Shown here piece after piece: positions 11,869 through 35,772 of a stretch of 64,000 nt of DNA. Location: NCBI GenBank assembly GCA_963995505.1, contig OZ023193.1, forward strand, positions 4,610,521-4,674,520, in the 5' to 3' direction. The notes under the pieces are model-generated. The model was not told the DNA's origin and made no database searches. It was given only the letters and a program-made list of their open reading frames with translations. The position numbers and the translations under genes were made by a program. Origin of the DNA: Hypericum androsaemum (taxonomy: Eukaryota; Streptophyta; Magnoliopsida; Malpighiales; Hypericaceae). Position 1 is the first letter of the stretch; each line of letters starts with the position of its first letter.

Positions 11869-12385
11869 TCATCTCCCTGATTGTATGTGTCATGGCTGGA
11901 AGTGGAAGGTTTCTTTTCTTTATTAGGTGTCCTAAACCCTTTGTTTCTTGAATGTGGATGTTTGGTTTTGTTTGCTCTTTGAATGTGATTAGAAGTAGTG
12001 TTGACTTTACTGCTAAAAATGGGAGGTTGCTCCTTTTGGAAAGAGAGCTTAGTCTCATTCAACTGCTACTGATATTGCCTTTTTTGGCTTATTGAACTCT
12101 TAATAATCTTTGTTGGTTTATTAAACTCTTCTTTCCCTGGCTTCTAGTCCAGATGGTTACTATATTTAGCTTGCAATGTATTACTGTTTCTTTGTTCTTT
12201 AGATAGTTGAAAATCTTGAGCTCCATATGAGGGAATTTATTTTCCTCTCATTTGTTTGGCAAAGTAATATTTACCTACTTTAACCAAATATTGATTGGAC
12301 AAAATGCAAAGTACAAGTTGGTGGAGGATGTGTTATATGCAAAAGACTGAGAATGAATAAGCATGTTTTCTTGGGGTGATCTCTT

Positions 12386-12650
12386 GGTTTTTTTTCCTAA
12401 GAGGGGTTGATTTCCCTGACAAACCCTTGAATGGGGTTCTCGGGGAATATTATCCCTGTCTGGGGTCGAGCACAAAAACGCTGAAAATTGAGCGTTTTTG
12501 TGCGCAAGAAAACGCTCGAAACTGAGCGTTTTTAGTGAAAAGCCGACAAAAATCCGACACGCTCTGTCGCAAGAGAATCTATGCCTCGGCTCGTCCCTCG
12601 GCTCGGCTTCTTCCAAAAAATGTTCTGTTTTCAGCGTTTTTGTGCTATTT
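12386..12650 (+). repeat. Left terminal inverted repeat of the MULE
   Basis: About 265 bp aligned almost base for base with the reverse complement of 31705-31972. It contains two strong hairpins: GCACAAAAACGCT pairs with AGCGTTTTTGTGC (12470-12503), followed by GAAAACGCTCG...GAGCGTTTTT. Several differences from the right end are C/T or G/A, as expected from decay of methylated cytosines. Confidence 0.9.
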
Positions 12651-13584
12651 TTTTTCCACTCAGAATTAATTCTCACCCACCGTGTACCCATGCATCATAA
12701 AGGAAAGTCAATATTCTCACCCACCGTCTGTCTACCTTCTTCTTCTTCCCCCTCGTGAAAAAAAAAATTTATCCTCCACTCTCCATTTTTCTCTTTTTAA
12801 AACCTAACCACCGGATACCCGAGCAAGCCGGACCCCGACCACCGCACCGGAGACCCGAAGAAGCCCGATCCCCAACCACCGCAGACTCGTACCTTTCGGT
12901 TTGATTAAATTAGAAACGCCCAATTTTATGATGATGTTGATTGCATGTCGAAAATGAGTAACATGGAGAGTGGAGGAGAATTTTTTTTGGGTTTAGGAAT
13001 CTCATACCAAGAGTGTCGAAAGTGAAGCCAAGAGTGTCGATGTTGATTGCATGTCAAAAATTGTAAAATTTAGCTTCGATCTTGATTTTTCGATTTACTA
13101 AAAACGCTCCATTTTGGGCGTTTTCTGTTTCTTTTTTTATTTCACATTTTCGATTTCGATTTTTAGCTCTGATTGGTTGGTTATTGTTTTAGCTTCGATT
13201 GATTTGTTATAAAGCCAAGAGTGTCGATCTCGGTTTAACTTTGATTGGATGTTTTGTTGATTGCATGTCAAAAATTGTAAAATTTAGCTACGATCTCGAG
13301 TGCATGTGCATTTTTAGATTCACCCCATTTTGGGCGTTTTTTGTTTCTTATTGTTTACCGCTGCGTTTTTTATTTTACATTTTACATTTTCGAGTTCGAT
13401 ATTGTTTTTTAGCTCCGATTGGTTGGTTATTGTTTTAGCTTTTAATTGTAATAAAGCCAAGAGTGTCGATCTCAGTTTAGCTTCGATTGGATATTTTGTG
13501 GTCGATTCTGGGTGTTTTCGAACATTAGTTATATTTTTGCATGCATTGCTCACGAGAATGATGATCTTGTTGCTTTTGTAACAG
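12651..13584. other. Presumed promoter and leader of the PMD gene, with degenerate repeats
   Basis: A GC-rich patch at about 12800-12895 may be a 5' UTR exon. From 13005 to 13500 a degenerate unit around AAGCCAAGAGTGTCGATCTC followed by TTTAGCTTCGATTGG recurs three or four times, with TTGCATGTCAAAAATTGTAA shared by two of them. The palindromic AAAACGCTCC...GGGCGTTTT motif appears at about 13099-13125. A CAG at 13582-13584 just before the ATG could be the acceptor of a leader intron. Confidence 0.5.
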
Positions 13585-15516
13585 ATGGAGCCCCGTCCAC
13601 GTTCTTCTGATTTCATAGGACACACCGGAACAACACAATGTACTGAACTCCTAAAATTTTATAATGTTCATCGTGCAAGGGCTATATGGCTTAACGAGGT
13701 TCGTGATATAATAACCTTTGTTGTAAAAAACTTGTGAAATTTAATTATATGTTTGATTAAAGAGGGATTGCATGAACTAGCTATTGGAAAACCAAACAGT
13801 TGAATGATATTAAACATAGTACATGTCACAAGAAAATAAATGGAACGGTGGACTTTTGTACTTAAAATTATGGTTCTTGGAACCACGTCTACTGATTTCG
13901 GTAAGCAAATCAAAGGAAGGTATTACCGGATTCATCAATTTAGGTACTGTAAGATGAAATGAGATACATATATATGTAAAATAAGTTATGGAAGTTAGAA
14001 TTAGTAATAACTTCTTATTTTCGGACAGAAACTTGAAATAAAAAGAATGCAACGAGGAAAAAAATTCAAAGAGGATAAAGAAGGATAAATAGAAGAAATG
14101 AATGTGAGACAACCCAGCCACTAAAAATTCGACCGATTAAGGCATGCAGCTAGTTCAATGCAATCCGTCTTTAATAACTTGTGAAATTTGTAAAATTTAA
14201 ATATATGTTTGATTAACTTGTGAAATTTTGTGTAGGTTAAAAAACAACGTGGAGAGGAGGTCAATGAAGAATTAGACGAACCAATAAGAATTCGTCGTCG
14301 AGAATACAAACCAAAGGATATTAAGAACGAGAAATTTCTAAGTTATATGGAAAACTCGTGTTTTCGGCATGTTTGGCATATTGGATTTATAGAGCACCTG
14401 GATAATTGTTTGGTAACTGCATTGGTGGAAAGATGGCGCCCTGAGACGCACATCTTTCATTTGCCTGTTGGTGAAATGACCATCACACTTCAAGATGTGT
14501 CAATTTTGTTGGGGCTGCCAGTTGACGGTAATCCAGTGACTGGATTGCAGACCCCTAAAGATTGGGGAGAGTTGTGTTTGGTTCTTTTTGGTAAAAATCC
14601 TACTACTTATCAGAGAGGTAGCACGGGTAACACAATAAGTTTTAATTGGTTGCTTTCTGAATTCAATCCATCCAATCTAAGTGAAGACGCACCAGAAGAG
14701 ATGATAAATCAATATATTAGAGCCAACATATTGTTGTTGATGGGATCCCTACTCTTTTGCGAGAAGAATGATGGCTTTATTCACACTTGCTGGTTGCCAT
14801 TTCTTGAGGATCTGGACTCGATTGATACATATAGCTGGGGTAGCGCATGTTTGTCCTTTTTGTACAGACAGTTTTGCATTTCTACCAACCCGAAAAGTGG
14901 TGAAATCGCCGGAGCAGTTTACCTGCTTTGTATGTGGGCTTGGGAACGGATCCATCCATATTGTCCCGTTGTTGCAAAGGAACGAAAACAAGAATATGGA
15001 GAAACTGTAGGCATCAGGTTGGAATTTTTAATGTGCTTAATTGAAATATGTCTTTGTTATATTATCCAATTTTTCTTGACAACTATTTTCCTAATGCAGG
15101 TGGACTGCACGCATTAATATGAAAAGATCTTTTAAGAAGACTATGCCTGATATGCGACGCGTGCTGGAAGAGCTTTCCCCCTCGGACGTATGTCATCTTA
15201 CATTTGCTATTGTATATCATTTTAAAAGAAAACGCATGCTCGTCATTTATTATATCCTCGTTCAAGTCATTTTTTATTGTAGATTGTTTGGCGACCTTAT
15301 GAACCACCATTGCACGATTCCCCGAGCTTCGATGAGACAACTGTACAATTGTGGCAAGCCCGAGTGCCATTAATTTGTTTTCATGATGTAGAGTGGTACT
15401 ACCCAGATCGAGTTTTAAGACAATTTGGGATAGTGCAACATGGCGAATACAATATCTGTGGACTGCTCCTGACGACACATCCCAGCCACAAACATCAGTA
15501 TTCATCGCCTTTTTAA
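13585..15516 (+). CDS. Plant mobile domain (PMD) protein of the MULE, chimeric 3' end
   Basis: Exons are 13585-13698, 14236-15017, 15100-15187 and 15283-15516 (GT-AG; phases 0, 2, 0), giving an open frame of 405 aa. Recognisable PMD wording includes HVWHIGFIEHLDNCLVTALV, ERWRPETHIFHLPVGEM, TITLQDVSILLGLPVDG, RWTARINMKRSFK and WYYPDRVLRQFGI. PMD proteins occur both in transposons and as host genes acting in silencing and genome stability; their biochemical activity is not settled. After residue 379 or so (base ~15438) the frame enters sequence that is the antisense of the transposase gene. The last ~26 residues are therefore not PMD and the natural C-terminus is lost. The frame is nevertheless free of stops. 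Intron 1 contains a small inverted-repeat insertion. Confidence 0.82.
13759..14172. mobile_element. Small TIR insertion in PMD intron 1
   Basis: The ends form an inverted repeat of about 25 bp: AAAGAGGGATTGCATGAACT at the left and the complement of AAAGACGGATTGCATTGAAC at the right. The 414-bp core is AT-rich without coding capacity. The flanking intron itself has short duplications (CTTGTGAAATTT...GTTTGATTAA), so the target duplication is unclear. Confidence 0.55.
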
Positions 15517-17056
15517 TGCCAGGGTGACGATCTGAAATAATACATATTCCAGAAGGATTTGTCACATGATTCTTAATTTGAAGCAGAAACCATGGCCAAC
15601 TATCAGTATTTTCACTCTCAACAAGTGCAAATGCTATCGGAATTATAGTATTATTTCCATCTATTGCAGTTGCAATTAAAAGAATCTGCTTGTATTTTTC
15701 GTATAGGAAAGTCCCATCAATTAGCAAAACAGGAATGCATTTTTTGAAAGCATCGATGCATGGCTTGAAGGCCCAGAACACTCGCTTAAAAATTCTTGTT
15801 CCTGGTGGCACAAGAATATTGGTGCCAGTGTAGCAATACTGATATTCCCACTCCACTACTGTTCCTGGATTTGCCGCCTGACATGCAACAAACCATTTGG
15901 GCAACATGTTGTACGATTCTTTCCAACCCCCCCATATCATGGCAATTGCCTTCTGCTTCCCAGCCCAAGCTTTTTTATAAGAGGGTTTAAACTTCAGACG
16001 GTCTTGAATCTCAGTAATAATAGAAATAATTGGAATAGTTGGTTGATGTTCCACCCGACATCGTATGCACCGAGCAATAAATTTGGAGTCCAGTTGTCTA
16101 TGGTCTTCAGACGCTCTTTCACCAACACAAGTGTGAGGATATCGGTATTTGGCAACTCCCCACAAACCCCTTCTAATAGATGCCCGAAAATACCAATTAC
16201 AACCTCCTTCTGCATGAAAACACCTAACAACCCAACAATTCTTTTTTCACTCCTCGACAAAATAGTCACAGTTAACTTTCATGGAGTATCTCTTCACATC
16301 CCGTATCACGGCTTCTTTTGTCGCCCAAATCATATCCTCGTTCAAATCAGCATCTCTTTCTACTGATTGGTTGTTGACGACCCAACCTTCATCATACGCA
16401 ACCAATGTCTCACGTACGTCTTCGCCATCACCATCTAAATTTTCCTCATCTTCATCATCAGTTGAATCAAAATTTGGCTCATCTTCATCGTCAGTTGAAT
16501 CATTTTCATGACGTTGTACCAGATTTTCAAATTCCGAGTCATGTACATGATGTACATTATAATGAGGCTCAGGTTCATCCCCAGGAACAGAATTTATATC
16601 GAAATCATTCACTCTTGAAGTTCCAGCTCCACCCGAATTGTATTGCATAGTACTCATAAACTCAGAATCATAAGTACTATTTACAATCAATTGATCATCC
16701 CCAAAATATTCATTTTGCGGTATAGCAGTTGCTCCTTTCTCAACATAAAGTTGTAGATATTTTAAACTAGGAAAATAATTCATACTACTAATCATGGTTT
16801 CCACATCAGCATCATCACAAACATCCATACACGTAAACTGAATAGGTGGTCCTATAAAAACTGGCAATCTAAACAAAAGCCTGCTTATATATTCATTTTC
16901 ACCAAATCCAATCTTACGCCTAATTGCTCCACAAAGTACGTTATAATCAACTGAATGTTCAAATCTGATAACTTTATTCCTTCCCCTGATATAATCCATA
17001 CTTTCGGGACCGTTACAATAATTACCATCATATCTCAACAAGAATTCTGCTACCAT
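15440..17056 (-). pseudogene. MuDR-type transposase (mudrA-like), C-terminally truncated, one in-frame stop
   Basis: Start MVAEFLLRYDG at 17056. The N-terminal region is followed by an acidic segment (STDDEDE repeats), then a MuDR N-terminal zinc-ribbon-like module (CFHAEGGCNWYFRAS, then HTC). The transposase core has IDGTFLYEKYKQ with the first catalytic Asp and ISDRHPGIKKAM with the second; HRYCIRHVA follows. At ~15440 the homology ends because the sequence becomes the antisense of the PMD gene, so the third catalytic acidic residue and the SWIM zinc finger are missing. One TGA at 16249-16247 interrupts the frame. An intact protein would bind the TIRs and cut the element out. This copy cannot be active. 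The convergent layout with PMD suggests a deletion removed both 3' ends. Confidence 0.88.
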
Positions 17057-17160
17057 CTTATGCTTGCACTACAAAAAAATAATCTTAAATCAGTATAATA
17101 AATCACCTACGCAAGTTATAACAAATTTATAAATGAGACTGAAATTTAAAGCCAAGCATG

Positions 17161-18740
17161 TAAGAAAAAATTAAAATTACCTGTTCTCTTGTTGAAATTA
17201 CAAATTGAATAGTAACTGAATAACTTTTTTTTTGGTAGAAGGCTAACTAACTATGAAGTCTCGTAATTTATAAGAAAAATTGTGCAAGAAAATGCTGAAA
17301 TTTGGGCATTTTTAGGGCTTGAATAAGCTGAGATTTGGGCATTTTTAGAGCAAGAAAACACGACCCCCTCTCGGGCTAGTTGTAGTAGTATACTTTTCAG
17401 AAAGTGAAATATTAGTCTTCGAATCAATAAAGCTAAGACTATTCAAGTGTCACGAGTATACTGTACGAACAAGACTACTCACATATAGTGAAAATAAGAT
17501 AATAACAGTATCCAAAAATCTAGTCCTACCTATCATGATTGATACAAATGAATATAGCTCATGCTGTAATAGGCGGTTTCAGTTCCAAAAATCCAGTCCT
17601 ACCTATCATGATTCATTAATAATTAACTACTCAGTAATATCCAGTAATTAATAATTTTAGAGATATGATTTGGGATATAGCAAAACTATATAGGATTTAA
17701 TAAATCTTGGACGTTGAAATCATTAATGAATGTACCCTAACATGCCTGGCATTTTCAGATATATGATTTGAAATCATTAATAATTAACCTAAAAATGCTA
17801 GGTTTTCAGCATTTTTTGAACAAGAAAATAATTATTCTTCTTAAACCTTTTTTGGTTATTCACTGTGCCCTAACATGCCTCTGAGCATAGGTGCAGTATA
17901 CTTTTTCGAAAGTGAAAGCTATGACTACTCAAGTATTACCACGACACTATATGAATAAGACTACTTTTTTGGTTGTTCACTATGCCCTAACATGCCATTA
18001 CGAATTGCTCCACAAAGTTACGAATTGCTCCACAAAGTTGTTCACTATGCCCTAAGAAAAAATTAAAATTACCCGTTCTCTTGTTGAAATTACGAATTGA
18101 ATAGTAACTGAATAACTTTTTTTTTGGTAGAAGGCTAACTAACTATGAAGTCTCGTAATTTATAAGAAAAATTGTGCAAGAAAACGCTGAAATTTGGGCA
18201 TTTTTAGGGCTTGAACAAGCTGAGATTTGGGCATTTTTAGAGCAGGAAAACACGACCCCCTCTCGGACTAGTTGTAGTAGTATACTTTTCGGAAAGTAAA
18301 ATATTAGTCTTCGAATCAATAAAGCTAAGACTATTCAAGTGTCACGAGTATACTGTACGAACAAGACTACTCACATATAGTAAAAACAAGATAATAACAG
18401 TATCCAAAAATCCAGTCCTACCTATCATGATTCATTAATAATTAACTACTGAGTAATATCCAGTAATTAATAATTTTAGAGATATGATTTGGGATATAGC
18501 AAAACTATATAGGATTTAATAAATCTTGGACGTTGAAATCATTAATGAATGTACCCTAACATGCCTGGCATTTTCAGATATACGATTTGAAATCATTAAT
18601 AATTAACCTAAAAACGCTATGTTTTCAGCGTTTTTTGAACAAGAAAATAATTATTCTTCTTAGACCTTTTTTGGTTATTCACTGTGCCCTAACATGCCTC
18701 TGAGCATAGGTGCAGTATACTTTTCCGAAAGTGAAAGCTA
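17161..18740. repeat. Direct repeat of ~690-760 bp upstream of mudrA
   Basis: Copy 1 is 17161-17921 and copy 2 is 18053-18740. Both start TAAGAAAAAATTAAAATTAC and end at CGAAAGTGAAAGCTA. Copy 1 has an additional internal duplication of about 75 bp around TCCTACCTATCATGATT. Each copy carries the AAAACGCTGAAATTTGGGCG-type motif; in copy 1 the CpGs have decayed (AATGCTG...GGCATT). A 20-bp tandem pair, TTACGAATTGCTCCACAAAG, sits between the copies at about 17999-18038. No coding sequence. Confidence 0.8.
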
Positions 18741-19093
18741 AGACTTTCTTAGTGTATTGTGTTATGTTATTTGAAGATGGATGCCAGTATTTTTTATTTC
18801 AGATTATATGGTTGTTATTTTCTTAAAGATAGCGTATAAAAATTAAAATTTAAAAAAATACATTGTTGCCAGTTACATAGTCGGAAAAATACAACACCAC
18901 AAAATGTAGACAAAAATACATAAAATTTTATAAAATCACATCAATCTCATACGGTTACACAGTTGAACCAGGTGCAAACACTGTCACCACATTATTAATG
19001 GTTATGTTACCGCAGAAGACATTCTGCCGTAATTGATTCCAAACAGCAAACTGTTGAAAAAGATAGCAATAAATATTTGTTAGATATATGCAC

Positions 19094-20677
19094 TGATGAG
19101 TGTGAAAACACTCTATCATCTATGTATATTTTCCGTTGTTTCTAGTGTTGTTGTGTGTTATTTATCATTGTATTTGTATATATCGTACTTTGAACGTTTT
19201 AGTATAGTTATTATGATTTTCATTAGTTTCGTTCATTTTTATTTCAAGGAGGCTTTGTGGTGATGCGGGGAGGATATTGGTGTACTTTGGAGCACGTCAA
19301 CGATGATCGGATCAGCCTTGAAGAATGGTGCACGATCGGGAAGGCGACGACATTGGGTAAACTGACCTTGAGCAACTTAAATGCCGCTAACTTTCTCATC
19401 CGAAGTCTAAGAGGCAAGCAAGGTGGCTCTGGAAAGAAGACATCCGGAGCTACAACTTTGTCTTTATAGTCTTTTTCAAATTCGAAGTCTAAGAGGGTCA
19501 AAAATGCACATGAAGTAAAGCTTTAAATCTGAGGACTCGCCTGACCGAAATCGGCCAAAATTCCGGGACCATTCCAGAATTTACCATGATATTTTCTTGG
19601 CTGCCATCCCACCACCTTTTGGCTGGAATTCCACTACCTAATTCCCCATACTCCACTACCTTCCTTTGTCTCCCACTACTTCCCTTTGTCCCCCACTACT
19701 TCCACTTTCCCACATATTCCTCCACTACACCATTCTCTCCACCATTAATCATTCACTCTTCCTTCCTCCAACCAATTGGGTGGCTGCTCTCCCTCCTTCC
19801 AACCAAAAACGTGACTGCCAACCTTGGAGAGGAGGAGAGGAAAAACGTGGCCATCCTTTGAAGAAGCAAGGAGAGGAAGTGTAGAAGAGCTTGGAAGGAA
19901 CTTGAAGAAGGAGCTAGGAGGGATCTCATGAAGAACCATTGAGCTTTCCTAAACTCTTCCTTTATTTTCATGTTTCATTCACTTTGTTCAATGGATGATT
20001 TGTGTTGTTTGTTGAACATGAGTGAGTAGTTCATTTGTGGGTTAGGTGCTTTGATGGCATCTACCTAGCCAATAGTTTTGTGGGGTTAATATGTTAAGGT
20101 TTATGAACTAGTTAATGTATTTAATGCTTAATCTTGATTGATCACCTTGATTATGAACTAAGTTGATGCTAATCGCCGGGAGGGGTTAGGATTAACGGAC
20201 CATTTAACTAGTTAACTAGTTGCCTATTGAAGAGGGATCTCTTTAGGTGGTTAGTTGTCCAAAGGATGATGTTGATAATCGGTAGTTAGTTGGATTAGTT
20301 GGCTAATTAGTTGCGGGAGTGAGGTTGGTTCACCTAAGCCTAATTAACTATCGATTTAGACTAATCGGTTGCGGGAGCATTGATTAGTTGCTTAAGGAAC
20401 ATCCTGACCATAACACGAACTTAATAAACCCCATATGCCATTTGGTTATTTAGGTTGTCATTGGTACCAAGCTCACTCTTGTTTTAAGTGTTTTAACCTT
20501 CTCCTTGCTTAGTTGTAATTTTATTTCAAGTAGCATAGAGTGTTTGGAATTGACAACTCCATTCCTTATAGTCCTAAACTAGTGGTTGAGTCGCATTTGT
20601 GGCCTAGCTTAGTCCTCGTGGGACGACAATCCCGTACTTACTCTTTATTGCAAGAAGGGTGAAAATCCTTCCTTTCA
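19094..20677 (+). repeat. 5' LTR of the Athila-like element
   Basis: 1,584 bp, TGATGAGTG...CCTTTCA, with 5-bp target duplication TGCAC immediately to the left. A conserved block near 19257-19469 (starting GTGGTGATGCGGGGAGGATA) is open in one frame. It recurs in all three LTR copies and is not a gene. Confidence 0.92.
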
Positions 20678-20712
20678 ATTGTGGCCTAGCTTAGTCCTCG
20701 TGAGTACCAAGG

Positions 20713-22905
20713 CCGAGAATCCAAGCTAACAATTTTGAGATCAAGCCGGCCGTGATAAACATGCTCAAATCTTCGGTTCAATTCTATGGGTTGCCGAATG
20801 AAGACCCAAATGACCATATTGGTAACTTCCTGGAGATAGCCGACACAGTCAAGTTCGACGGAGCTACCGATGATGCCGTAAAGCTTAGATTGTTTCCATT
20901 TACTTTGAAGGACCAAGCCAAGATATGGTACAAGCAATTGGTCGATACAGATATCACCACGTGAGAGGAGTTAGCCAATGCCTTCCTTGAAAAGTTTTTC
21001 CCCTACGTAAAGACAAATAGGCTCAGGAAGGAGATCAACAACTTTCAACAATTTGAAAATGAGACCTTGAGTGAAGCTTGGGAAAGATTCAAGGGACTAC
21101 AAAGGAGTTGCCCACATCACAATTTGACAGAGGAGTCTCTACTCCACACCTTCTACTTTAGCCTTGGATCATCTATAAGGGGCACGGTTGATGCCGCCGC
21201 AAATGGATCATTCTTGAGAAAGGAGAAAGATGAAGCCTACCACATCTTGCAGCAGTTGGCAATTACAAACATGCTTATGGCTAATGAGAGAGCTAGGCAA
21301 CCAAGAAAGGAGCAAGTAGAAGTGATTGATGTTGACATTGCCTCCTCAATTCAAGCTCAATTGGCTTTATTAGCAAAGCAAGTGAAGGAACTAAGCTTGA
21401 ACAAAAGCAATGTGGCGGGTGTGCAAACAAGTTGTGAAGTTTGTAGCAATGTTGGCCATGACATGAATGAGTGTGCCATGTTGGGCTCTTCTATGGAGCA
21501 AGTAAATTTCGTGGGTGGCCAAGGGCAAGGAGCAAATAGGATGGGAAACAACCCATATTCCTCAACTTACAATCCTGGTTGGAGAAATCACCCGAACTTC
21601 TCTTGGAGAAGTACCGGAGGAAGTAGTGGAGAGAACATGGCAATTGTTCCGGATAAGGGACTTCCTCTTCGCAATACACAACAAGGACCTCCTCCGGGTT
21701 TCCAACCACATGCGTTCTTGACAGATAGAATGGGTGCTATTGAGGAGAGGTTTGAAAAGATAGAAAAATTTATGCAAGACGTTGGAGGGGTGGTTAGCCA
21801 ACAAGGCCAAATTTTGGCCGCCATACAACAACAAGCATCAAGGCAAGATAGCTTTGAACAAATCCTCAAAGGTCAAGCAACCGCCATGCATAATATAGAG
21901 AGGCAACTTGGGCAAATAGCAAGTGCAAGTGCCCACAGAGCGTCCGGCTCTCTTCCTAGCTCCACAGAAGTGAATCCTCGAGGAAATGTGTGTGCAATTT
22001 CTTTGAGGAGTGGTAAGGAAATAGCTTCTCAAGAGGCAACCCGGAAGAACTATGATGATCCTGTGGAAGCCAATGAGGAGGAGAAAGAAGTGGAGGCAAA
22101 GGGAGAGAGAAGTCCACCGGTTGAGATTGCTGAAGAAGAAGTCTACGTGCCACCACCACCTAAAGCCCCTCGACTACCATTCCCTCAAAGAGTGAAGAAG
22201 AAGAATATGATGGATGACAAGTTTATTGGCTTCATGGAGAAGATGAAAAATATCCAGATCAGTGTTTCTTTTCTTAAGATGTTGGATCAATTGCCGCAAT
22301 ACTCGAAATTTCTCAAGGAACTCATCACTAAAAAGAGGAAGTGGGAGGACGGGAAGATGGTGGCTCTAACGGCTAAGTGTAGCTCGCTCATCTCCAAAGA
22401 TCTCTTGACAAAGTTAAAAGATCCAGGGAGTTTTACTATTCCTGGTTTTGTTGGTGATGTTGAGTTTCCCAAGTGCTTATGTGATTTAGGCGCTAGCATT
22501 AACTTGATGCCTTTGTCTATTATGAGGAGACTTGGTTTATGTGAGGTGAAACCAACTTCTATGCGTCTCCAATTGGCGGACCAAACCATGAAGAAGCCAT
22601 TCGGGATTGTGGAGGATGTTTTGTTGAAGATTGATAAGTTTATCTTCCCCGTGGACTTTGTGGTGTTGGATTTCGAAGAGGACAAGAGCTGTCCACTAAT
22701 TCTTGGCCGACCATTTCTCAACACGGCACGTGCCTTGGTGGACGTGCATGAAGGAAGATTGATCCTCCGAATAGGGGAGGAGAAACTAGAATTTAAGATG
22801 TCCAATGGAATGCGCCACCCTCTTGATGAAGGCGTATGCAAGAAGATTGATATGGTTGAAGATTGTGTCCTCAAGTTGGGCAAGATTGATATGGTTGAAG
22901 ATTGA
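20713..22905 (+). pseudogene. Athila-like Gag plus aspartic protease, one nonsense codon
   Basis: The frame is open from about 20713 (PRIQANNFEIKPAVINML), lacking the natural start. Gag motifs include QFYGLPNEDPNDHIGNFLE, DAVKLRLFPFTLKDQAKIWY and ELANAFLEKFFPY. A TGA at 20962-20964 replaces the Trp expected before EELANAF. A short Cys/His cluster (CEVCSNVGHDMNEC) acts as a zinc knuckle. The retroviral-type protease follows, with CDLGASINLMPLSI and ILGRPFLNTARALVD. A 23-bp duplication (GATTGATATGGTTGAAGATTG) near 22846-22904 shifts the frame and ends this reading. Confidence 0.85.
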
Positions 22906-23422
22906 AGGTAGACTGGAGAAAAAGATTAAGGGAGAACAAGAAGAGGATGACTTGGAAGAGTTCGTGGGAGAAACTTATAAAAAAGGTCGCCATGAGAATT
23001 TGGAGCTTGATTTGAAGTATCCTACTCCACATTCCATCATTAAGGCTCCAAGCTTGGAGTTGAAAGAGCTACCCTCTCATTTACGATATGCATTCTTGAA
23101 GGAGGAAGCCAAGCAGGAAGTGGAAAGGCTTAAGAAGGAGAAGACCAAAAGATCACATGATGCCCACATCGTGAAGAAAGAGTTCAAGAAAGGTGATCAA
23201 GTGCTACTCTATAACTCCCGTTTGAAACTTTTTCCGGGAAAACATAAGTCCAAGTGGAGTGGACCTTTCAAGGTGGTAAAGGTTTTTCCATTTGGAACCC
23301 TCAAGTTGGAAAGAATTAATGGAGTATTCAAGGTGAATGGCCAAAGGTGCAAGACGTACCTTGGTGATAATATGGAACGGCAAGCGGAAGTGCACTCCGT
23401 CACTTCACCCTCCTATGCATGA
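22906..23422 (+). pseudogene. Pol remnant: RT start joined to integrase C-terminus
   Basis: In the frame that continues after the duplication there is the segment just before the RT (SLELKELPSHLRYAFL). It is followed at once by an integrase C-terminal domain (RSHDAHIVKKEFKKGDQVLLYNS, GPFKVVKVFPFGTLKLE, FKVNGQRCKTYLG), ending at 23420-23422. The whole RT, RNase H and integrase core, normally about 3 kb, has been deleted between them. The element therefore depends on proteins from other copies. Confidence 0.82.
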
Positions 23423-23966
23423 ACTAGGGGAGTAAAGTCAAGCTAACGACTATAACTTAGCATGTGTTTTGTATTGTCTTTATATTGTCATTTGTCTATA
23501 TGTGTTTTTCTTATTACGTTTGTTCTTATTGTAGTATAATTTTGATGTCCTAGCTCCATGTTTATGGGATCTCCCGCATTTTGAAGGTGATTTGGGCGGT
23601 TGGATGATCGACAAGACGCTTGGGGGCGTAGCCCCCGCCGTGGCCAAACTGGGATCGACCTGCCAGGTCAGGTCGCGGGGGTCTAGGGGGCAGCGCCACC
23701 TAGCGGGGGTTGAAGGGGGCATGTCCTTGGCGTACGCCAGAAAAGTTACAGGGGCTTTTAACGTCGGGAGGTTGGCGGACGCCATGTCCTTGGCGTACGC
23801 CAGGTTTGCCCAGCCAACATAAAACTCAAATCGAAATCCCCTCTTCCTTCCCAAAAACAAATCACCTCCACCACCACTCCTCCTCAACTCTTCCTCCCCA
23901 AAAATAACAAGAACCTAAGCTCCACCTCCACCATACCATTCTATACCTTGGATCATATGCGGCAAG

Positions 23967-25656
23967 TAAAAGGAAGGATTTTTACCCCTCTTGCAATAAA
24001 GAGTAAGTACGGGATTGTCGTCCCACGAGGACTAAGCTAGGCCACAAATGCGACTCAACCACTAGTTTAGGACTATAAGGAATGGAGTTGTAAATTCCAA
24101 ACACAATATGCTACTTGAAATAAAATTACAACTAAGCAAGGAGAAGGGTAAAACACTTAAAATAAGAGTGAGCTTGGTACCAATGACAACCTAAATAACC
24201 AAATGACATATGGGGTTTATTAAGTTCGTGTTATGGTCCGGGTGTTCCTTAAGCAACTAATCAACGCTCCCGCGACCGATTAGTCTAAATTGATAGTTAA
24301 TTAGGCTTAGGTGAACCAACCGCGTTTCCGCGACTAATTAGCCAACTAATCTAACTAACTACCAATTATCAACATCATCCTTTGGACAACTAACCACCTA
24401 AAGAGATCCCTCTTCAATAGGCAACTAGTTAACTAGTTAAATGGTCCGTTAATCCTAACCCCTCCCGGTGATTAGCATTAACTTAGTTCATAATCAAGGT
24501 GATCAAGCAAGATTAAGTATTAAATACATTAACTAGTTCATAAACCTTAACATATTAACCCCACAAAACCATTGGCTAAGTAGGTGCCATCAAGGCACCA
24601 AACTCACAAATCTACTACTCACTCATATTCATCATCCAACACAAATCATCCATTGAACAATGAGAATGAAACATGAACAAAAAGATAGAGTTTAGGAAAA
24701 GCTCAATGATGTCTTCAAGAGCTCCCTCCTAGCTCCTTCTTGGCCACGTTTTTCCTCTATGTTCCTCCAAGGATGGCCACGTTTTTCCTCCTCTCTTCTA
24801 AGGGTTGGCAGCCACGGATTTTCTTCTTCTCCTCAAGCTCTCCAATGGTGATGAGCAGCCACGTTTCTCTTGCTCTCCTCTTCAATGGTGAGCCACGTTT
24901 TTGGTCCAAGGGAGAGAGGTTGGCAGCCACGTTTTTTGCTTGGGAGGAAGAGGAAGAGGCAGCCACGGATTTGTTCTTTTTTAGAGGGAGGAAGAGTGAA
25001 TGAATGAATTGGGGAAATGGAGTAGTGGTCAAAGTATGGAGAAGTGGAGTGGGAGATAGTGGGAGACAAAGTAAATTAGTGGAGTATGGGGAGTTTGTTA
25101 GTAGAATTCCAGCCAAAAGGTGGTGGGATGGCAGCCAAGAAAACGTCCTGGCAAATTCCGGAATGGTTCCAGAATTTTAGCCGATTTCGGTCAGGCGAGT
25201 CCTCAGATTTAGAGCTTGACTTCATGCGCCTTTTTGGCCCTCTTAGACTTAGAATTTGAAGATGACCATAAAAACAAAGTTGTAGCTCCGGATATCTTAT
25301 TTCCAGAACCGCCTCACTCGTCTCTATTGGACTTCATATGCAAAAGTTATCTTCATTTAAGTCTCTCAAGGTCAGTTTGCCCAATGTCGTCACCTTCCCG
25401 ATCGTGCACCATTCTTCAAGGCTGATCCGATCGTCGTTGACGCGCTCCAAAGTAGACCAATATCCTCCCCGCATCACCACAAAGCCTCCCTGAAATAAAC
25501 AAAAACAAAACTTAATGAAAATCACAATACTTACACTACAACGTTCAAAGAACAATAAATAACGATACGACGATATAAAACACACAAAAATACTAGAAAC
25601 AATAGAAAATCAACACTAAAACATACATAGATGATAAAGTGTTTTGACACTCATCA
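23967..25656 (-). repeat. Solo LTR of the same family, reverse orientation, own target duplication
   Basis: The reverse complement matches the flanking element's LTRs end to end (begins TGATGAGTG at 25656, ends at 23967). It is flanked by the perfect 5-bp duplication GCAAG (23962-23966 and 25657-25661). It has no internal region, so it is the product of LTR-LTR recombination after an independent insertion. Length is about 1,690 bp; its sequence differs visibly from the other two LTRs by small indels. Confidence 0.9.
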
Positions 25657-25661
25657 GCAAG

Positions 25662-27605
25662 CAGAGGTGTTGGACAAGTACTCTCATTTCCTCCACCCAG
25701 CGGAGAGACAATCTTGGAAGCTACACCAAGATGAAAGACCAAGGTCGGTGGAGGGAGGTAACAATGAAGGAGAGACCGTTCAAGATGAAGGAGGTGACGA
25801 CGTGGAACCATCTCGTGTGACAGGTGGAGCGAAGTCCTTGAGGTAATGCACACCATGAATGCCCGAACCACACTAATGGAGCGGGAACTTCAACATCAAG
25901 GCTACTACATCGAGCAAATGGTGAAGCGATCCGGATACAACATCCCACCACCACCACCATATCCAACTCAAGATTAAAGGGAGTTTCCTAGCACTTTGTT
26001 TTTCCTTAGTTATTTTCTTATCTTCATGATGTTTTCCGTTTGCTTTATGTCTTTGTGATGTCTTGTTCTTCATGTTTGACTATTGTTCATGTTTGGTTCT
26101 TATTGCATTTGTTAGTATAGTTCAATTGTTTAAGATGTATGTGTGCTCCCTACACCTTGAGGACAAGGTGTTCTTCAAGTGTGGGGGTGTGGTTCCACTT
26201 AGGAATCCTTTGTGTGTTTAGATTTAGTTTGTCTTGATTAGGCAATGATTTGGCATGAATTTTCAAAATTTGACCCCCTTCAAAATTCTTTAACTTGTGT
26301 TAGAAGCTTACCACACACCTAGTTAGGAAATGGACTCGAGCACAAGGCCTAAGAACTTGTAGAAACCTCACCCTCGGTTGTTTAGACTCGTGGTCTCACT
26401 TTGTAGATTAGACTAGAGGGTTGATGAGTGACCTTGTGAGGAACTTTGAGCCGAAGGAGGAGACAACCGTCTTCATTTATTCATGAGGTGCCTACATGAG
26501 TTCGGTTGATCGAGGTATCCTACTAGTACTCGACATGGTCTTGGTTGTGTGGCGTTAGTGAATGACGGGGGCTAATCCTTTGAAATTGAGCCTATAGCTT
26601 TAGAGCCAAGAACCTTTATATCCATTGCTTTAACCCATTGAGCCGAGCCATTCATTGATCATACTATATGTATACCAACTTTAAGCCTTACATCCACCAT
26701 CCTCCCGACCTTTGGTCATCCGATCCGAGGACGCATAAGTTTATACTTTTTGGGAAATGATATATATTGGGTTTAGTTGGTAGCTTAGTGTTCTTATGGG
26801 TTAATTCATTAGGAATTTGGGTAATTGAGAGGCCATACAAAGAAGCCGAGTTCTTGCCTAGAAAATGCCAAGTTTGTGTTTGTAGAAAGAAAGAAAAGAA
26901 AAAAAAAGAAAAAAAAAGATGAAAAAGAACAGAAAAAAAAGAAGAAAAGAAAAGAAAAGAAAGAAAAGTGAATGTTGAATAAGGCATTAATAATTGGCAT
27001 AACTCGTGATACACGGTCTTAGGAAATGGGTGAATTTTGGGAGTGTGCTTTAGCGATTTATGGTGAAGATGTTTAGAATAGACGAGTGACTAGAGTACTT
27101 TTGCAACATGTCCTCGGATTGGGTGGTTTAACTACTATCCATACATATTTCCTCACCCTTACCTTAGCCCCATTATAACCCGATTGAAAGCCCCCGGTTC
27201 ACGAGCAACCACACGACTTTGAGAAACTGTTGAGTAGGATGTAGGATATTTTGAAAGACATCGATCACGTATGCGAGAGATAGGAAGTTGGCTACTTACA
27301 AATCGTGAGCTAAACATTTTCGAACCTCTGAGTGGTTAACCTTCTAGTGTCTTTTACATAGTGATAACACTTGGTTAAACCATCGAGTGGTGAGGTGTCT
27401 ACCGGTTCTTACTCTTTGTGTTTGGGTTGATGAACTAACTAGGTAGTGGGGTGGACTTTTGATGTGAGTTTGAGATTTTGAGGGGAGTCAATTTGTGAAT
27501 TTATCATGCCGTGTCTTGTCCTTATTATGTTTTCTTTCTTTTGTGATGTGATTGTGTTTGTATGAGCATTGCTTGAGGACAAGCAATGATTCAAGTGTGG
27601 GGGTG
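25662..27605 (+). other. 3' untranslated region of the Athila-like element
   Basis: Up to about 25975 there is a degenerate coding remnant ending YYIEQMVKRSGYNIPPPPPYPTQD, probably the 3' end of the second ORF of this family. The rest is non-coding. It has an A-rich tract (26880-26970). CAAGTGTGGGGGTGT occurs twice, at about 26176-26190 and directly before the 3' LTR (27592-27605). The second is the polypurine tract; the first is an extra copy. Confidence 0.7.
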
Positions 27606-29194
27606 TGATGAGTGTGAAAACACTCTATCATCTATGTATGTTTTAGTGTTTATTTTCCGTTGTTTCTAGTGTTGTTGTGTGTTATTTATCATTGTATTTG
27701 TATATATCGTACTTTGAACGTTTTAGTATAGTTATTGTGATTTTCATTAGTTTTGTTTATTTTTATTTCAAAGAGGCTTTGTGGTGATGCGGGGAGGATA
27801 TTGGTGTACTTTGGAGCGCGTCAACGACGATCGGATCAGCCTTGAAGAATGGTGCACGATCAGGAAGGCGACGACATTGGGTAAACTGACCTCGAGCGAC
27901 TTAAATGCCAATAACTTTCTCATCCGAAGTAGAATGGAGGCAATCAAGGTGGCGCTGGAAATAAGACATCTGGAGCTACAACTTTATCTTTATAGTCTTC
28001 TTCAAATTCGAAGTCTAAGAGGGTCAAAAATGCACATGAAGTAAAGCTTTAAATCTGAGGACTCGCCTGACCAAAATCGGCCAAAATTCTGGGCCCATTC
28101 CGGAATTTACCATGACATTTTCTTGGCTGCCATCCCACCATCTTTTGACTGGAATTCCACTACCTAATTTTCCATACTCCACTACCTTCCTTTGTCTCCC
28201 ACTACTTCCCTTTGTCCCCCACTACTTCCACTTTCCCACATATTCCTCCACTACACCATTCTCTCCACCATTAATCATTCACTCTTCCTTCCTCCAACCA
28301 ATTGGGTGGCTGCTCTCCCTCCTTCCAACCAAAAACGTGACTGCCAACCTTGGAGAGGAGGAGAGGAAAAACGTGGCCATCCTTTGAAGAAGCAAGGAGA
28401 GGAAGTGTAGAAGAGCTTGGAAGGAACTTGAAGAAGAAGCTAGGAGGGATCTCATGAAGAACCATTGAGCTTTCCTAAACTCTTCCTTTATTTTCATGTT
28501 TCATTCACTTTGTTCAATGGATGATTTGTGTTGTTTGTTGAACATGAGTGAGTAGTTTATTTGTGGGTTAGGTGCTTTGATGGCATCTACCTAGCCAATG
28601 GTTTTGTGGGGTTAATATGTTAAGGTTTATGAACTAGTTAATGTATTTAATGCTTAATCTTGATTGATCACCTTGATTATGAACTAAGTTGATGCTAATC
28701 GCCGGGAGGGGTTAGGATTAACGGACCATTTAACTAGTTAACTAGTTGCCTATTGAAGAGGGATCTCTTTAGGTGGTTAGTTGTCCAAAGGATGATGTTG
28801 ATAATTGGTAGTTAGTTGGATTAGTTGGCTAATTAGTCGCGGGAGTGCGGTTGGTTCACCTAAGCCTAATTAACTATCGATTTAGACTAATCGGTCGCGG
28901 GAGCATTGATTAGTTGCTTAAGGAACATCCGGACCATAACACGAACTCAATAAACTCCACATGCCATTTGGTTATTTAGTTGTCATTGGCACCAAGCCCA
29001 CTCTTTCCTTTATTGTGTAAATCTTCTCGTTATTTAGTCGTTGTAGTAACTAATTCGTATTTGGAATTGACACCTCCATTTCTTTTAGTCCTAAACTAGT
29101 GGTAAAGTCGAATTTGCAGCCTAGCTTAGTCCTTGTGGGACGACAATCCCGTACTTACTCTTTATTGCAAGAAGGGTGAAAATCTTTCCTTTCA
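27606..29194 (+). repeat. 3' LTR of the Athila-like element
   Basis: 1,589 bp, TGATGAGTG...CCTTTCA, preceded by a G-rich polypurine tract and followed by the target duplication TGCAC. It differs from the 5' LTR by scattered substitutions and small indels, notably around 27930-28010, so the insertion is not very recent. Confidence 0.92.
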
Positions 29195-30020
29195 TGCACC
29201 AATAATAATAATGTCATGTAACATTTCATTGCTAAATGGATATACTCACATTTGATAATATTATTGCACATCCAGCACCGATAACAAAATTTCCCTCTGT
29301 GAAGACACGATGATGTATGCTAGCAGGCAGAGTACCGGTTGGGTCCTTAAAAAATGAAATCAATTAAAGTAATCAAAGACAATTTAATTATGGGGATATA
29401 TTTAAAATTATTATCTTTATACCTTTAGAACTACCATGGCATCACCTAAACCATTAGGAGTGAAAGTCTCGACCATCGCAACCATCTACAATAATTACAA
29501 AATATGCATGTTAATAAATGTTGAATATGAAAAATAATCGAATACATTAATCTATAACAAGTTTGCTGTACCTGCGAAATTCTATGCACATCTCTGGTGT
29601 GTTTAGCCTCATCAATAGTGGTCATAAAATTATGTCTATCCACCAAACCTAATAATTTTCATACAGACAGATAAAAAAAATTATAGAAAATGTTGCGCAT
29701 CATACCTTGAGCCATTATATAGGAACATCCGTTGTCCACGGATCTGTTTCAAAAATGTCATCAGAGATTGGGTTGGTGAATTCTCTATAAATGGCCTGCT
29801 GAGTTGTCAGTTCAGGATGCGAGCTAACGCCGTCACGACGATTAGCTAACGCCCTACGTGTAGCATTTTGGTAGTGGCCAGCAGGACCGGCAATCCTACT
29901 GGTTCGAGGTTGAGGAGGAGGAGGAGGAGGAGGAAGAGATTGTGTTAGGGACAATGAATAATACGATTCATCGTCGCTATCCAATTGTAAATAATCTTCC
30001 CAATTATTTAATGGATCCAT

Positions 30021-30314
30021 TTTTTGGAGTAAATTTTTTTTTACAAAAGATGGGTAATTTGGAAAAGCTCGCAAGTGTGATAGAAAATTGTTGTATACAA
30101 TGTATATATATAGAGTTCTTAGGTTAGGGGTAGGCCTGAAAATGCTGAAATTCTAGCGTTTTTTGTATCAAGCAAAATCGTAACCGACTTTATCATTCTA
30201 GCATTCTTGGTATCAAGCAAAATCATAGCCACGCTGAATAAGGCCAATCTGGTCTATATATATGTCTCAAAATTATCATTCCTTCACACCTTCAAACCTT
30301 CAAAATTTTACAAA
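30021..30314. promoter_or_regulatory. Shared promoter interval of the divergent OB-fold pair
   Basis: Only 294 bp separate the two start codons, so the promoters must overlap. The interval contains a TATATATAT run (about 30099-30110). The element-wide hairpin motif is present as AAAATGCTGAAATTCTAGCG plus TTTTTTG (30136-30162). A partial second copy (TTCTAGCATTCTTGGTATCA) follows at about 30197-30216. A second TATATATAT lies near 30255. Confidence 0.55.
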
Positions 30315-31147
30315 ATGAATCCATCACAAAATTGGGAAGAACACCTAGACATGGGGAGCGACGAAGAATCTTACTCTCCGTTGTCACTATCTCAGCTTCC
30401 TCCTCAACGTCAAGGTGTTGATTACAAAAAACTCTATGGCCCACATTTTGATATGAAACAATGTATTGAAGATCGACGTCTAGAGCTTCAAGGCAAATCG
30501 AAAGATTACAAAAAAAATCTCCCAAAACGTTATCTACCTATTGTCCCAAAGCGTAGTGACAAAATTTTCAAAAAAGATCTGTGGACATCAGCTGTTCACT
30601 TTGTTAAGGCTCAAGGTAGCACATGCTATTAGCTAAATTGGCTTATTACATCTTTATTGTGGTAATATTTACTTTTTTATTTTAGGTATGCTAATTGGAA
30701 ATACCTTTATTGGAGTTCCTATTGAGGAGTTCAATAAGAAGCCCAGTGGTAGTATAATTTCACAGGTAATATTTTACAAAAATTTTATTTCTCTATGATA
30801 TCTCATAATAATTAGCCACCATACTTTGTAATGTAGATGGTTTTGTATGTGGAAAGTTTCGTTCCTAAGGGCGTTGCGATTTTAGTGGACCCTACTGGCA
30901 GTCTTTTCGGTATCATACGTGACTCCACAGATACTATCGCCGATGGGTGTGTGTTGGTTCTAAAAAATGTAAGATATTTTATCATTATCATATGATACCA
31001 TATGTTTAGAATTTTTTTTGACTTACTAATGTGTTATTTTATTAGGTTGAAGTGGATGATACTAGGGATGGCAAAAATTTTCTTAAGGCTACTAATGAGA
31101 ACGTGGTCAAAGTGTTCAAGAAAAATGGCGAAACTTCATCAACTTGA
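30315..31147 (+). CDS. OB-fold protein gene B of the MULE (HROB-like), four exons
   Basis: Exons are 30315-30615, 30686-30765, 30837-30968 and 31046-31147, all GT-AG. Intron phases are 1, 0, 0 and the frame is intact, giving 204 aa. The N-terminus MNPSQNWEEHLDMGSDEESY is homologous to gene A. The C-terminal half reads VESFVPKGVAILVDPTGSLFGII, DGCVLVLKNVEV and NENVVKVF. These match the beta-strand pattern of the DUF4539 OB-fold domain found in the recombination factor HROB. A single-strand DNA or protein-binding role in transposition is inference only. No transposase or protease motif is present. The gene looks intact although the transposase is dead. Confidence 0.72.
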
Positions 31148-31704
31148 CAATATAATCTCTATATGTATTCAAATATGTGATTTGATATTGTTTACATGTA
31201 ATGTATTGCTTTAATGCTCCTTGAGATTGTTGTAATATATTGTGTTGTGTTATTTGAGACTAGAGTTTTTAAAATTCTGCAACCATTTTAATTATTCCTT
31301 ATGCCAAGTGAGTTTTTAATATATCGTGTTGTCTTATTTTAATTCTCGCCAAAATTTGGCCCAAAACACCACACAATAAGGCATTTTTCTTTAACCCACA
31401 ATAAACCAAAATTTTTAAAATTTCTGCAGTAGGTTCTCAATTTTTTGCCAAGCTGCACCCATTATTATAGATTTTAATTACTCAATAACACATACTACCC
31501 TATATACTATACATGTAAAAGTTAAAAAATTTATGAAATCTGAGATTTAATGAGTCAAAAATTTGAGATTAAAATTTAGGATGTAAAAAATTATTAAAAA
31601 ACTATTATTACAAATTAAATTAGGAAGTATCGTTTGGCCTCAAATTTAATTAGAATGTAAAAAAATAAGTAAGTCAGTTAAAAAAAGGCAGAGTTATTAC
31701 GTAA
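31148..31704. other. AT-rich subterminal region of the MULE
   Basis: Non-coding DNA between the stop of OB-fold gene B and the right TIR. It should contain the gene's 3' UTR. Nothing else is recognisable. Confidence 0.5.
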
Positions 31705-31972
31705 AAAAATTAGCACAAAAACGCTGAAAACTGAGCATTTTTTGGAAGAAGCCGAGCCGAGGGACGAGCCGAGGCGTAGATTCTCTTGCGACAGAGCGTG
31801 TCGGATTTTCGTCGGCTTTTCACTAAAAATGCTCAGTTTCGAGCGTTTTTTTGCGCACAAAAACGCTCAATTTTCAGCGTTTTTGTGCTCGACCCCAGAC
31901 AGGAATAACATTCCCCGAGAACCCCATTCAGGGGTTTGTCAGGGAAATCAACCCCTCTTAGGAAAAAAAATC
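31705..31972 (-). repeat. Right terminal inverted repeat of the MULE
   Basis: Reverse-complement partner of 12386-12650, ending at the 9-bp target duplication TGATCTCTT (31973-31981). It keeps the same paired AAAACGCT/AGCGTTTT hairpins near 31714-31739, 31826-31850 and 31858-31887. Confidence 0.9.
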
Positions 31973-31981
31973 TGATCTCTT

Positions 31982-35685: not shown

Positions 35686-35772
35686 TGGTATCAGAGCTTT
35701 ACATCTAGCTCTTATTTTCTTCCCTCTTCAAGCTCCGTCCTCCTAACCTAAGTGGGACGAATTTTTGCCACC

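Follow-up and report, generated by a model that had tools for sequence, protein, structure and literature searches.

Several plant clades of Mutator-like DNA transposons (MULEs) have been tabulated in which a PMD gene stands beside or antisense to the transposase gene (PMC6446971), and an earlier paper proposed that MULEs have captured PMD-C genes, which might act against silencing (PMC5418596). The mudrB gene is described as a helper whose biochemical function is unknown (PMC6446971, PMC9168764). Here we describe, in a 64,000-nucleotide stretch of Hypericum androsaemum DNA (the window; C14:4610521-4674520 in a 385-Mb genome of 29 contigs), a region that is a decayed member of a MULE family whose elements are large (~12 kb) and that carries, together with PMD and mudrA-type transposase genes, two genes related to the DNA-repair factor HROB, referred to as OB1 and OB2. 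The PMD genes, introns and retroelements seen here would by themselves suggest a flowering plant. A first-pass annotation of the window had been unable to match this arrangement to a described MULE class. A PMD gene in a MULE was rejected as a novelty, being already described (PMC6446971, PMC5418596), and it is the HROB-like pair that remains unmatched and is the new part. Literature searches for transposon-borne OB-fold or HROB genes, which did not cover Repbase and the annotations of other plants, returned nothing relevant among the papers listed, and an unnamed earlier record is possible; the term 'OB-fold' does not occur in the text of a review from 2026 on plant gene capture (PMC13317346). 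The best explanation taken as a whole, a decayed MULE family with an HROB-derived OB pair and a role for that pair in repair, is one that we favor with moderate confidence.

Positions 12386-31972 of the window form a single MULE with exact limits and ends 19.6 kb apart. The terminal inverted repeats (TIRs), the left one of 269 bp at 12386-12654 on the forward strand and the right one at 31704-31972 on the reverse strand, are 96% alike over 267-268 bp, which makes them long TIRs in the sense used for MULEs, and they are flanked by a perfect target site duplication (TSD) of the 9 bp expected of a MULE, TGATCTCTT, at 12377-12385 and 31973-31981. The same coordinates had been given in the first-pass annotation, which recognized one element bounded by matching TIRs and a perfect TSD, masked by nested insertions and with a gene split by an internal retrotransposon, and all of this was recovered: a long terminal repeat (LTR) retrotransposon and a solo LTR lie inside the element, with OB1 exons 1-4 on one side of the retrotransposon and exon 5 on the other. 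Foreign DNA in the middle and the distance between the ends might suggest two unrelated insertions that resemble one element by chance, but this candidate was excluded by the perfect TSD, by the OB1 exons flanking the retrotransposon and by a colinear copy on contig C11, ~97% identical and without the retrotransposon, which already refutes it and leaves it a negligible probability. Because this colinear copy exists, both halves of the window element belong together.

The C11 copy (7632082-7644215, L012+L013) has 12,136 bp between its ends, a TSD of its own, CATTTCTCA, the same TIRs, and PMD, mudrA, OB1 and OB2 in the order of the window; both the retrotransposon and a 2.55-kb deletion found in the window copy are absent, and identity to the window reaches 96-97% where the two copies are colinear. 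It therefore provides the copy with matching TIRs and genes that the first-pass annotation had proposed to look for, although it is frameshifted rather than intact, with frame changes in mudrA and OB2. In the window, C9 and C11 copies, PMD and the transposase gene are convergent within the same TIRs, as in the PMD-bearing MULE clades. Among two-ended copies of the family, window included, 16 of 19 show a 9-bp TSD in which no more than one position mismatches, compared to 36 of 2000 random position pairs under the same scoring; ends were allowed to move by up to 4 bp, four fetched copies (L016, L018, L023 and L028) were excluded for want of two full ends, and the copies lacking such a TSD are L009, L026 and L027. 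The element limits, the gene order and the family are as described here, a part of the account that we regard as virtually certain. In a separate observation, 10 occurrences of the TIR motif AACGCT/AGCGTT were counted in the C11 copy as a whole, where 3.6 would be expected (maximum of 300 simulations, 9), and some of them fall within a ~0.9-kb tandem duplication.

From left to right, the element holds PMD on the forward strand, mudrA and OB1 on the reverse strand, and OB2 on the forward strand. Exons 1-4 of OB1 lie at 30020-29706, 29648-29572, 29485-29423 and 29345-29250, and exon 5 with the stop codon at 18955-19050 (reverse strand; ends counted by hand), exon 5 being colinear in the C11 copy. 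A frameshift is present near the end of exon 1, and exons 2-5 match PF15072 (5.2e-20). OB2 has four exons at 30315-30615, 30686-30765, 30837-30968 and 31046-31147 (forward strand; end of exon 3 set by hand), and its frame, open throughout and coding for 204 aa, matches the same family (9.4e-9). The two OB-fold (HROB-like) genes of the earlier reading are thus both present, with the correction that they are paralogues of one family.

The association of these genes with this MULE lineage was examined by genome protein searches in which 150 of 624 candidate places were scored for mudrA, 146 of 480 for PMD, 150 of 747 for OB2 and 91 of 91 for OB1, with matches merged to loci by hand (105 OB1 rows to 48 loci; the listed rows of 180 OB2 matches to 62). 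An OB match was found within 15 kb at 15 of the 18 scored close mudrA places (at least 80% identity), a figure that is not a census because the C9 copy (L010), which has mudrA and no OB pair, is not among these 18 rows. At distant mudrA places (62-70%), this was so for 1 of 132, at a distance of 12-13 kb, with a chance expectation of ~0.9% per place. PMD places behaved likewise, with an OB match at 20 of 25 close places and at 0 of the 51 low-identity rows entered (one by its end coordinate). At eight of the 18 close mudrA places (the window, C5:19.12, C3:3.99, C11:7.64, C7:10.97, C4:7.53, C2:8.29 and C17:11.68 Mb), the four genes share a single order and relative orientation, which adds six loci to the window and C11 copies, TIRs having been checked for the fetched copies of the window subfamily. 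The other 10 comprise two with both OB genes and no listed PMD, three with PMD and OB2, two with OB2 only, two with PMD only and one with nothing. These counts bear out the earlier suggestion of a lineage with its own accessory set.

The pair is divergently transcribed in the window subfamily and in the sister nearest to it, and by manual count, 25 OB1 loci have OB2 in this divergent arrangement, on the other strand and 1-2 kb distant. In the second-tier relatives L057 and L058, OB1 and OB2 lie tail to tail, and a locus at C14:5.93 Mb (L059) has an open mudrA frame of 576 aa and an open OB2 in the orientation of mudrA, with no OB1 in the 3 kb examined. The gene set has thus been kept but shuffled. 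Scoring of 150 among 298 PF15072 candidates gave a list of 40 matches, of which 25 (manual count) sit at loci with an OB2 match within 15 kb. One HROB-like OB exon, more OB2-like by eye, was seen at C6:8716500-8717400 (L060) with no PMD or mudrA match listed nearby. The distant places belong to a sister MULE family in the same genome, ~65% identical in mudrA and ~49% in PMD, which shares with the element PMD and mudrA on opposite strands, a high copy number and many open frames, and differs in the near absence of OB matches given above. Its copies, for example at C2:18400797-18406629, have PMD open frames of ~268-332 aa and often a 585-aa mudrA without stops, and they are probably near-identical and recently active because many rows are equal in identity and score.

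The origin of the pair was sought in protein databases and in the genome itself. With OB1, the database search returned only two proteins, both genic-looking HROBs and one of them from Hibiscus sabdariffa (P0002), which can be aligned to OB1 from the acidic N-terminus via the GPAG and DPW segments into the OB-fold. Upstream of the OB-fold, OB1 is colinear with genic HROB (WE..L.L, GPAG, TTQ, DPW), a resemblance that is weak in OB2, and none of 52 OB2 candidates in 5.8 billion proteins reached E 0.01. No homologues were found in viral contigs, and among solved structures, the Hibiscus HROB had no match at E 1 and OB1 had four at E 0.19-0.79 that were taken as chance. When the same genome was searched with P0002, 13 matches were obtained, all but two at known OB loci. 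The two others, at C15:15439299-15440082, mark the likely host HROB (L061, 901 bases examined), which matches PF15072 (2.8e-16) and is identical to OB1 at 79 of 163 residues (48%). Its four exons are separated by three introns at the positions and in the phases of OB1 (after ..CAA-G, ..Q and ..K), and the end of the next exon agrees as well; the third intron is lost in OB2. Given this identity and the shared intron positions and phases, the OB pair was probably captured from the likely host HROB, and the simplest reading would be that the gene was taken up as genomic DNA and then either duplicated or captured a second time, with the direction from host to transposon being the one that we infer. 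That the OB genes come from HROB is the part of this reading that we consider highly probable.

Capture of gene pieces is frequent in MULEs, and the pair could in principle be passive cargo of a Pack-MULE, a piece of a host gene that is carried along fortuitously and is decaying, as the broken OB1 of the window and its mostly non-synonymous recent changes might suggest. Codons were compared exon by exon (Nei-Gojobori) between three copies of the window subfamily and 20 others, and 12 of the others, grouped by eye, were treated as the main sister subfamily. Median omega was 0.23 for OB1 (60 comparisons, not independent) and 0.35 for OB2 (36 comparisons, mostly of exon 1). With L009 as reference, OB1 gave 0.10-0.19 against the 12 main-sister copies and 0.29-0.44 against the other 8, and bootstrap intervals lay below 1 in 9 of 10 pairs (seven OB1, three OB2). 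Between L009 and the 12 sister copies, amino acid identity was 96-98% in OB1 exons 1, 3 and 4, 82% in exon 2 and 79% in exon 5, amounting to 92% for the whole of OB1, and was 80% for OB2 (mainly exon 1). By comparison, close mudrA places besides the window and C11 copies show 80-93% identity in the searched core, and identity is 60-71% at most of the close PMD places that lie outside the subfamily. Intron identity was 86% in the one pair measured, for which the OB1 ratio with introns as neutral yardstick was ~0.25, far under 1. These codon ratios indicate that OB1 is under purifying selection between subfamilies, and for OB2 the indication of purifying selection comes mainly from exon 1. Passive cargo is rejected as largely refuted by this low omega between subfamilies and by the recurrence of the same two genes at the same positions in many loci of several subfamilies, with the paralogue pair retained, and is left as a very improbable account.

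Gap repair from a second copy is the usual answer to the question of how cut-and-paste transposons increase in copy number. Human HROB (MCM8IP) uses acidic N-terminal motifs to bind RPA1; it also binds the MCM8-9 helicase and stimulates it, and its loss is felt especially in long-tract gene conversion (PMC7290032). Its OB-fold is required for MCM8-9 activation and contacts MCM9, and MCM8 is contacted by the segment upstream of the OB-fold, an interaction that is predicted for plants too (PMC11055865). OB1 keeps the acidic N-terminus and the OB-fold parts of plant HROB and loses the tail, and we infer that OB1 exon 1 may correspond to the MCM8-binding segment of human HROB. A role in the repair of excision gaps can be outlined. 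The transposase would excise the element and leave a gap at the donor site, which for a 12-kb element only long-tract synthesis could refill. OB1, perhaps with OB2, would act there on the RPA and MCM8-9 repair machinery of the host, long-tract homology-directed synthesis would be favored, and the donor copy would be restored, turning cut-and-paste into copying. Repair that was interrupted and closed by end-joining would leave internally deleted derivatives such as those observed, and homology-directed repair that was broken off has been held responsible for the deletion derivatives of maize MuDR (PMC10288884, with reference to Hsia and Schnable 1996). That the pair promotes gap refilling is put forward tentatively, as a possibility somewhat short of probable. 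The fuller version, in which a transposon lineage captured the MCM8-9 activator HROB, doubled it into two specialized proteins and was selected for long-tract gap repair at its own excision sites, is more doubtful.

The main rival would have the pair act in the opposite sense, as short decoys that bind MCM8-9 or RPA without activation. By damping damage signalling or homologous repair, they would cause the excision gap to be end-joined and let the cell tolerate transposition. Both proteins end soon after the OB-fold and lack the C-terminal tail of genic HROB, because of which they could inhibit rather than help, OB2 is strongly diverged, and raised HROB levels disturb replication in cell culture (PMC11675949). 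However, OB1 exon 1, with its acidic N-terminus and GPAG, and exons 3-4 are the parts so well kept between L009 and its 12 sisters, which looks like retained activity, and end-joining would lose donor copies; we consider inhibition unlikely. It is likewise rather improbable that the OB genes serve another step without any link to MCM8-9, such as anti-silencing in the manner of VANC or the handling of single-stranded transposition intermediates. Anti-silencing accessory genes do exist in MULEs (VANC21, PMC8616336), and PMD has been suggested to act in this way (PMC5418596), but what OB1 is known to be related to is a factor of homologous recombination and not of silencing, and OB1 is best kept in exon 1 and OB exons 3-4, the OB-fold and the segment preceding it being what binds MCM8-9 in human HROB (PMC11055865).

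Several observations weigh against a pair retained for repair and have to be set beside those above, among them the missing tail. Some close relatives have an OB2 match only or no OB match, and the OB pair is thus not strictly required. No relatives of the pair were found outside this genome in the protein database searches, and OB2 is far diverged, sharing 51 of 162 residues with the C15 gene. At the position of the start methionine of the window OB1, the C11 copy has isoleucine, and the few changes between the window and C11 OB1 are mostly non-synonymous (dN 0.023, dS 0.007), which fits decaying copies and lends no support to selection. The bootstrap exception is a pair of decayed copies (L030-L053) with an omega of 0.76 and an interval of 0.44-1.44. 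Most sister OB2 copies covered exon 1 and not the OB-fold exons, and because most of them were fetched through exon 1 only, the OB-fold part of OB2 was covered in few copies and partly. The omega of OB1 may be too low because dS (~0.3) exceeds the intron divergence (~0.14, one pair). Finally, the microhomology at deletion junctions is also compatible with ordinary end-joining without help from the element.

These deletions were seen in several copies. With the left TIR as query, 537 candidate places were obtained in the genome; the 40 that were scored yielded 40 near-full-length matches (93-100% identity), along with 22 short ones, each of 31 bp, within places of this kind. The C9 copy (L010) is a deletion derivative with PMD and mudrA and no OB gene, the C8 copy keeps OB2, OB1 and PMD without mudrA, a C11 copy at 3.17 Mb keeps the end of OB2 and PMD, and among the many short copies, the 13 compared, of 0.9-1.1 kb, consist of element ends. 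The BLAST coordinates show an overlap of 4-10 bp at deletion junctions, with a base-by-base check made for the window junction only. That junction, at 15435-15439, has a 5-bp microhomology, GCAAC, common to both breakpoints, and the 2.55 kb missing there relative to the C11 copy contained the 3′ ends of the convergent PMD and mudrA genes. A C5 copy (L011, C5:14493253-14499770) is a short non-autonomous element of the MULE family that holds an apparent copia retrotransposon, by eye, with its TSD, TGCTAATTC, intact.

The deletion also accounts for the truncation of the two other genes of the element. The PMD gene (PF10536, 1.6e-70) lies on the forward strand, with exon 1 and its ATG at 13585-13698 (a gene model; the same exon is found in L009, L010, L012 and L014), exon 2 at 14236-15017, exon 3 at 15100-15187 and exon 4 at 15283-15439, where it is ended by the junction. 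The mudrA gene, on the reverse strand at 15440-17056, has lost its 3′ part and stops at the end of the Pfam MULE domain; it matches the MULE/DDE transposase domain PF10551 (2.7e-19) and has an in-frame stop at ~16247, leaving the window copy without the intact transposase of an autonomous MULE. The region of the SWIM zinc finger is within the deleted 3′ part; in C11, the two separate pieces of mudrA had no Pfam match to it, and when read across the frame change with X, they gave PF04434 at E 0.02, below the cut-off. Among the 45 database relatives of the transposase, identity does not exceed 59%, and this over only a part of the query. The element had been called complete in the first-pass annotation, a description that does not hold given the truncated PMD and mudrA, the mudrA stop and the OB1 frameshift, and no fully intact copy was found among those whose DNA was examined.

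The remaining features of the element are non-coding or inserted. Between mudrA and OB1, at 17161-18702, lies the ~0.9-kb non-coding tandem duplication, which is also present in the C11 copy. The LTR retrotransposon occupies 19094-29194 (forward strand) in the last OB1 intron, with LTRs 94% alike and a 5-bp TSD, TGCAC, at 19089-19093 and 29195-29199, and nested in it is the solo LTR of a related retroelement at 23967-25656 (reverse strand; apparent TSD GCAAG, by eye). Elsewhere in the window, two tandem long open frames at 35752-40545 resemble a copia-type retrotransposon, and open frames at 57749-62675, downstream of the element, resemble a P4-type phospholipid-transporting ATPase, both by eye.

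The experimental evidence for copying by gap repair has been called far from conclusive in a paper on PIF/Pong/Harbinger elements (PMC10288884), and a MULE family that conserves a derivative of a long-tract gene conversion factor, if this reading is true, would allow a direct test of it. It would also mean that a captured repair gene was kept working by a transposon and not carried as debris, and that some PF15072 genes in plant annotations should be treated as transposon genes.

Compared to genic plant HROB (human MCM8IP/C17orf53), the OB genes have in common the acidic N-terminus, GPAG, DPW, the OB-fold and, in this plant, the same introns, and they differ in being multi-copy, inside TIRs in the copies checked, without the C-terminal tail and a diverged pair. 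Among MULEs, the nearest described relatives are the PMD-bearing MuDR-type clades MUDR, MUDRAVI2, MDR, MULE-Monocots and MULE-Solanaceae_1 (PMC6446971), which share with the element a 9-bp TSD where one is given, long TIRs in most, a mudrA-like transposase and a PMD gene that is often on the opposite strand; unlike it, they have no HROB-like gene in the accessible descriptions, MULE-Solanaceae_1 having an unspecified 'unknown ORF'. Maize MuDR, with mudrA and mudrB, likewise has a helper gene adjoining the transposase gene and internally deleted derivatives. We know of no link between mudrB and HROB. VANDAL21 with VANC and Pack-MULEs with captured genes also carry non-transposase genes, some of which serve the element, and the element described here differs from both in that a DNA-repair factor, probably captured, adjoins the transposase gene and, as the codon comparisons indicate, is under selection.

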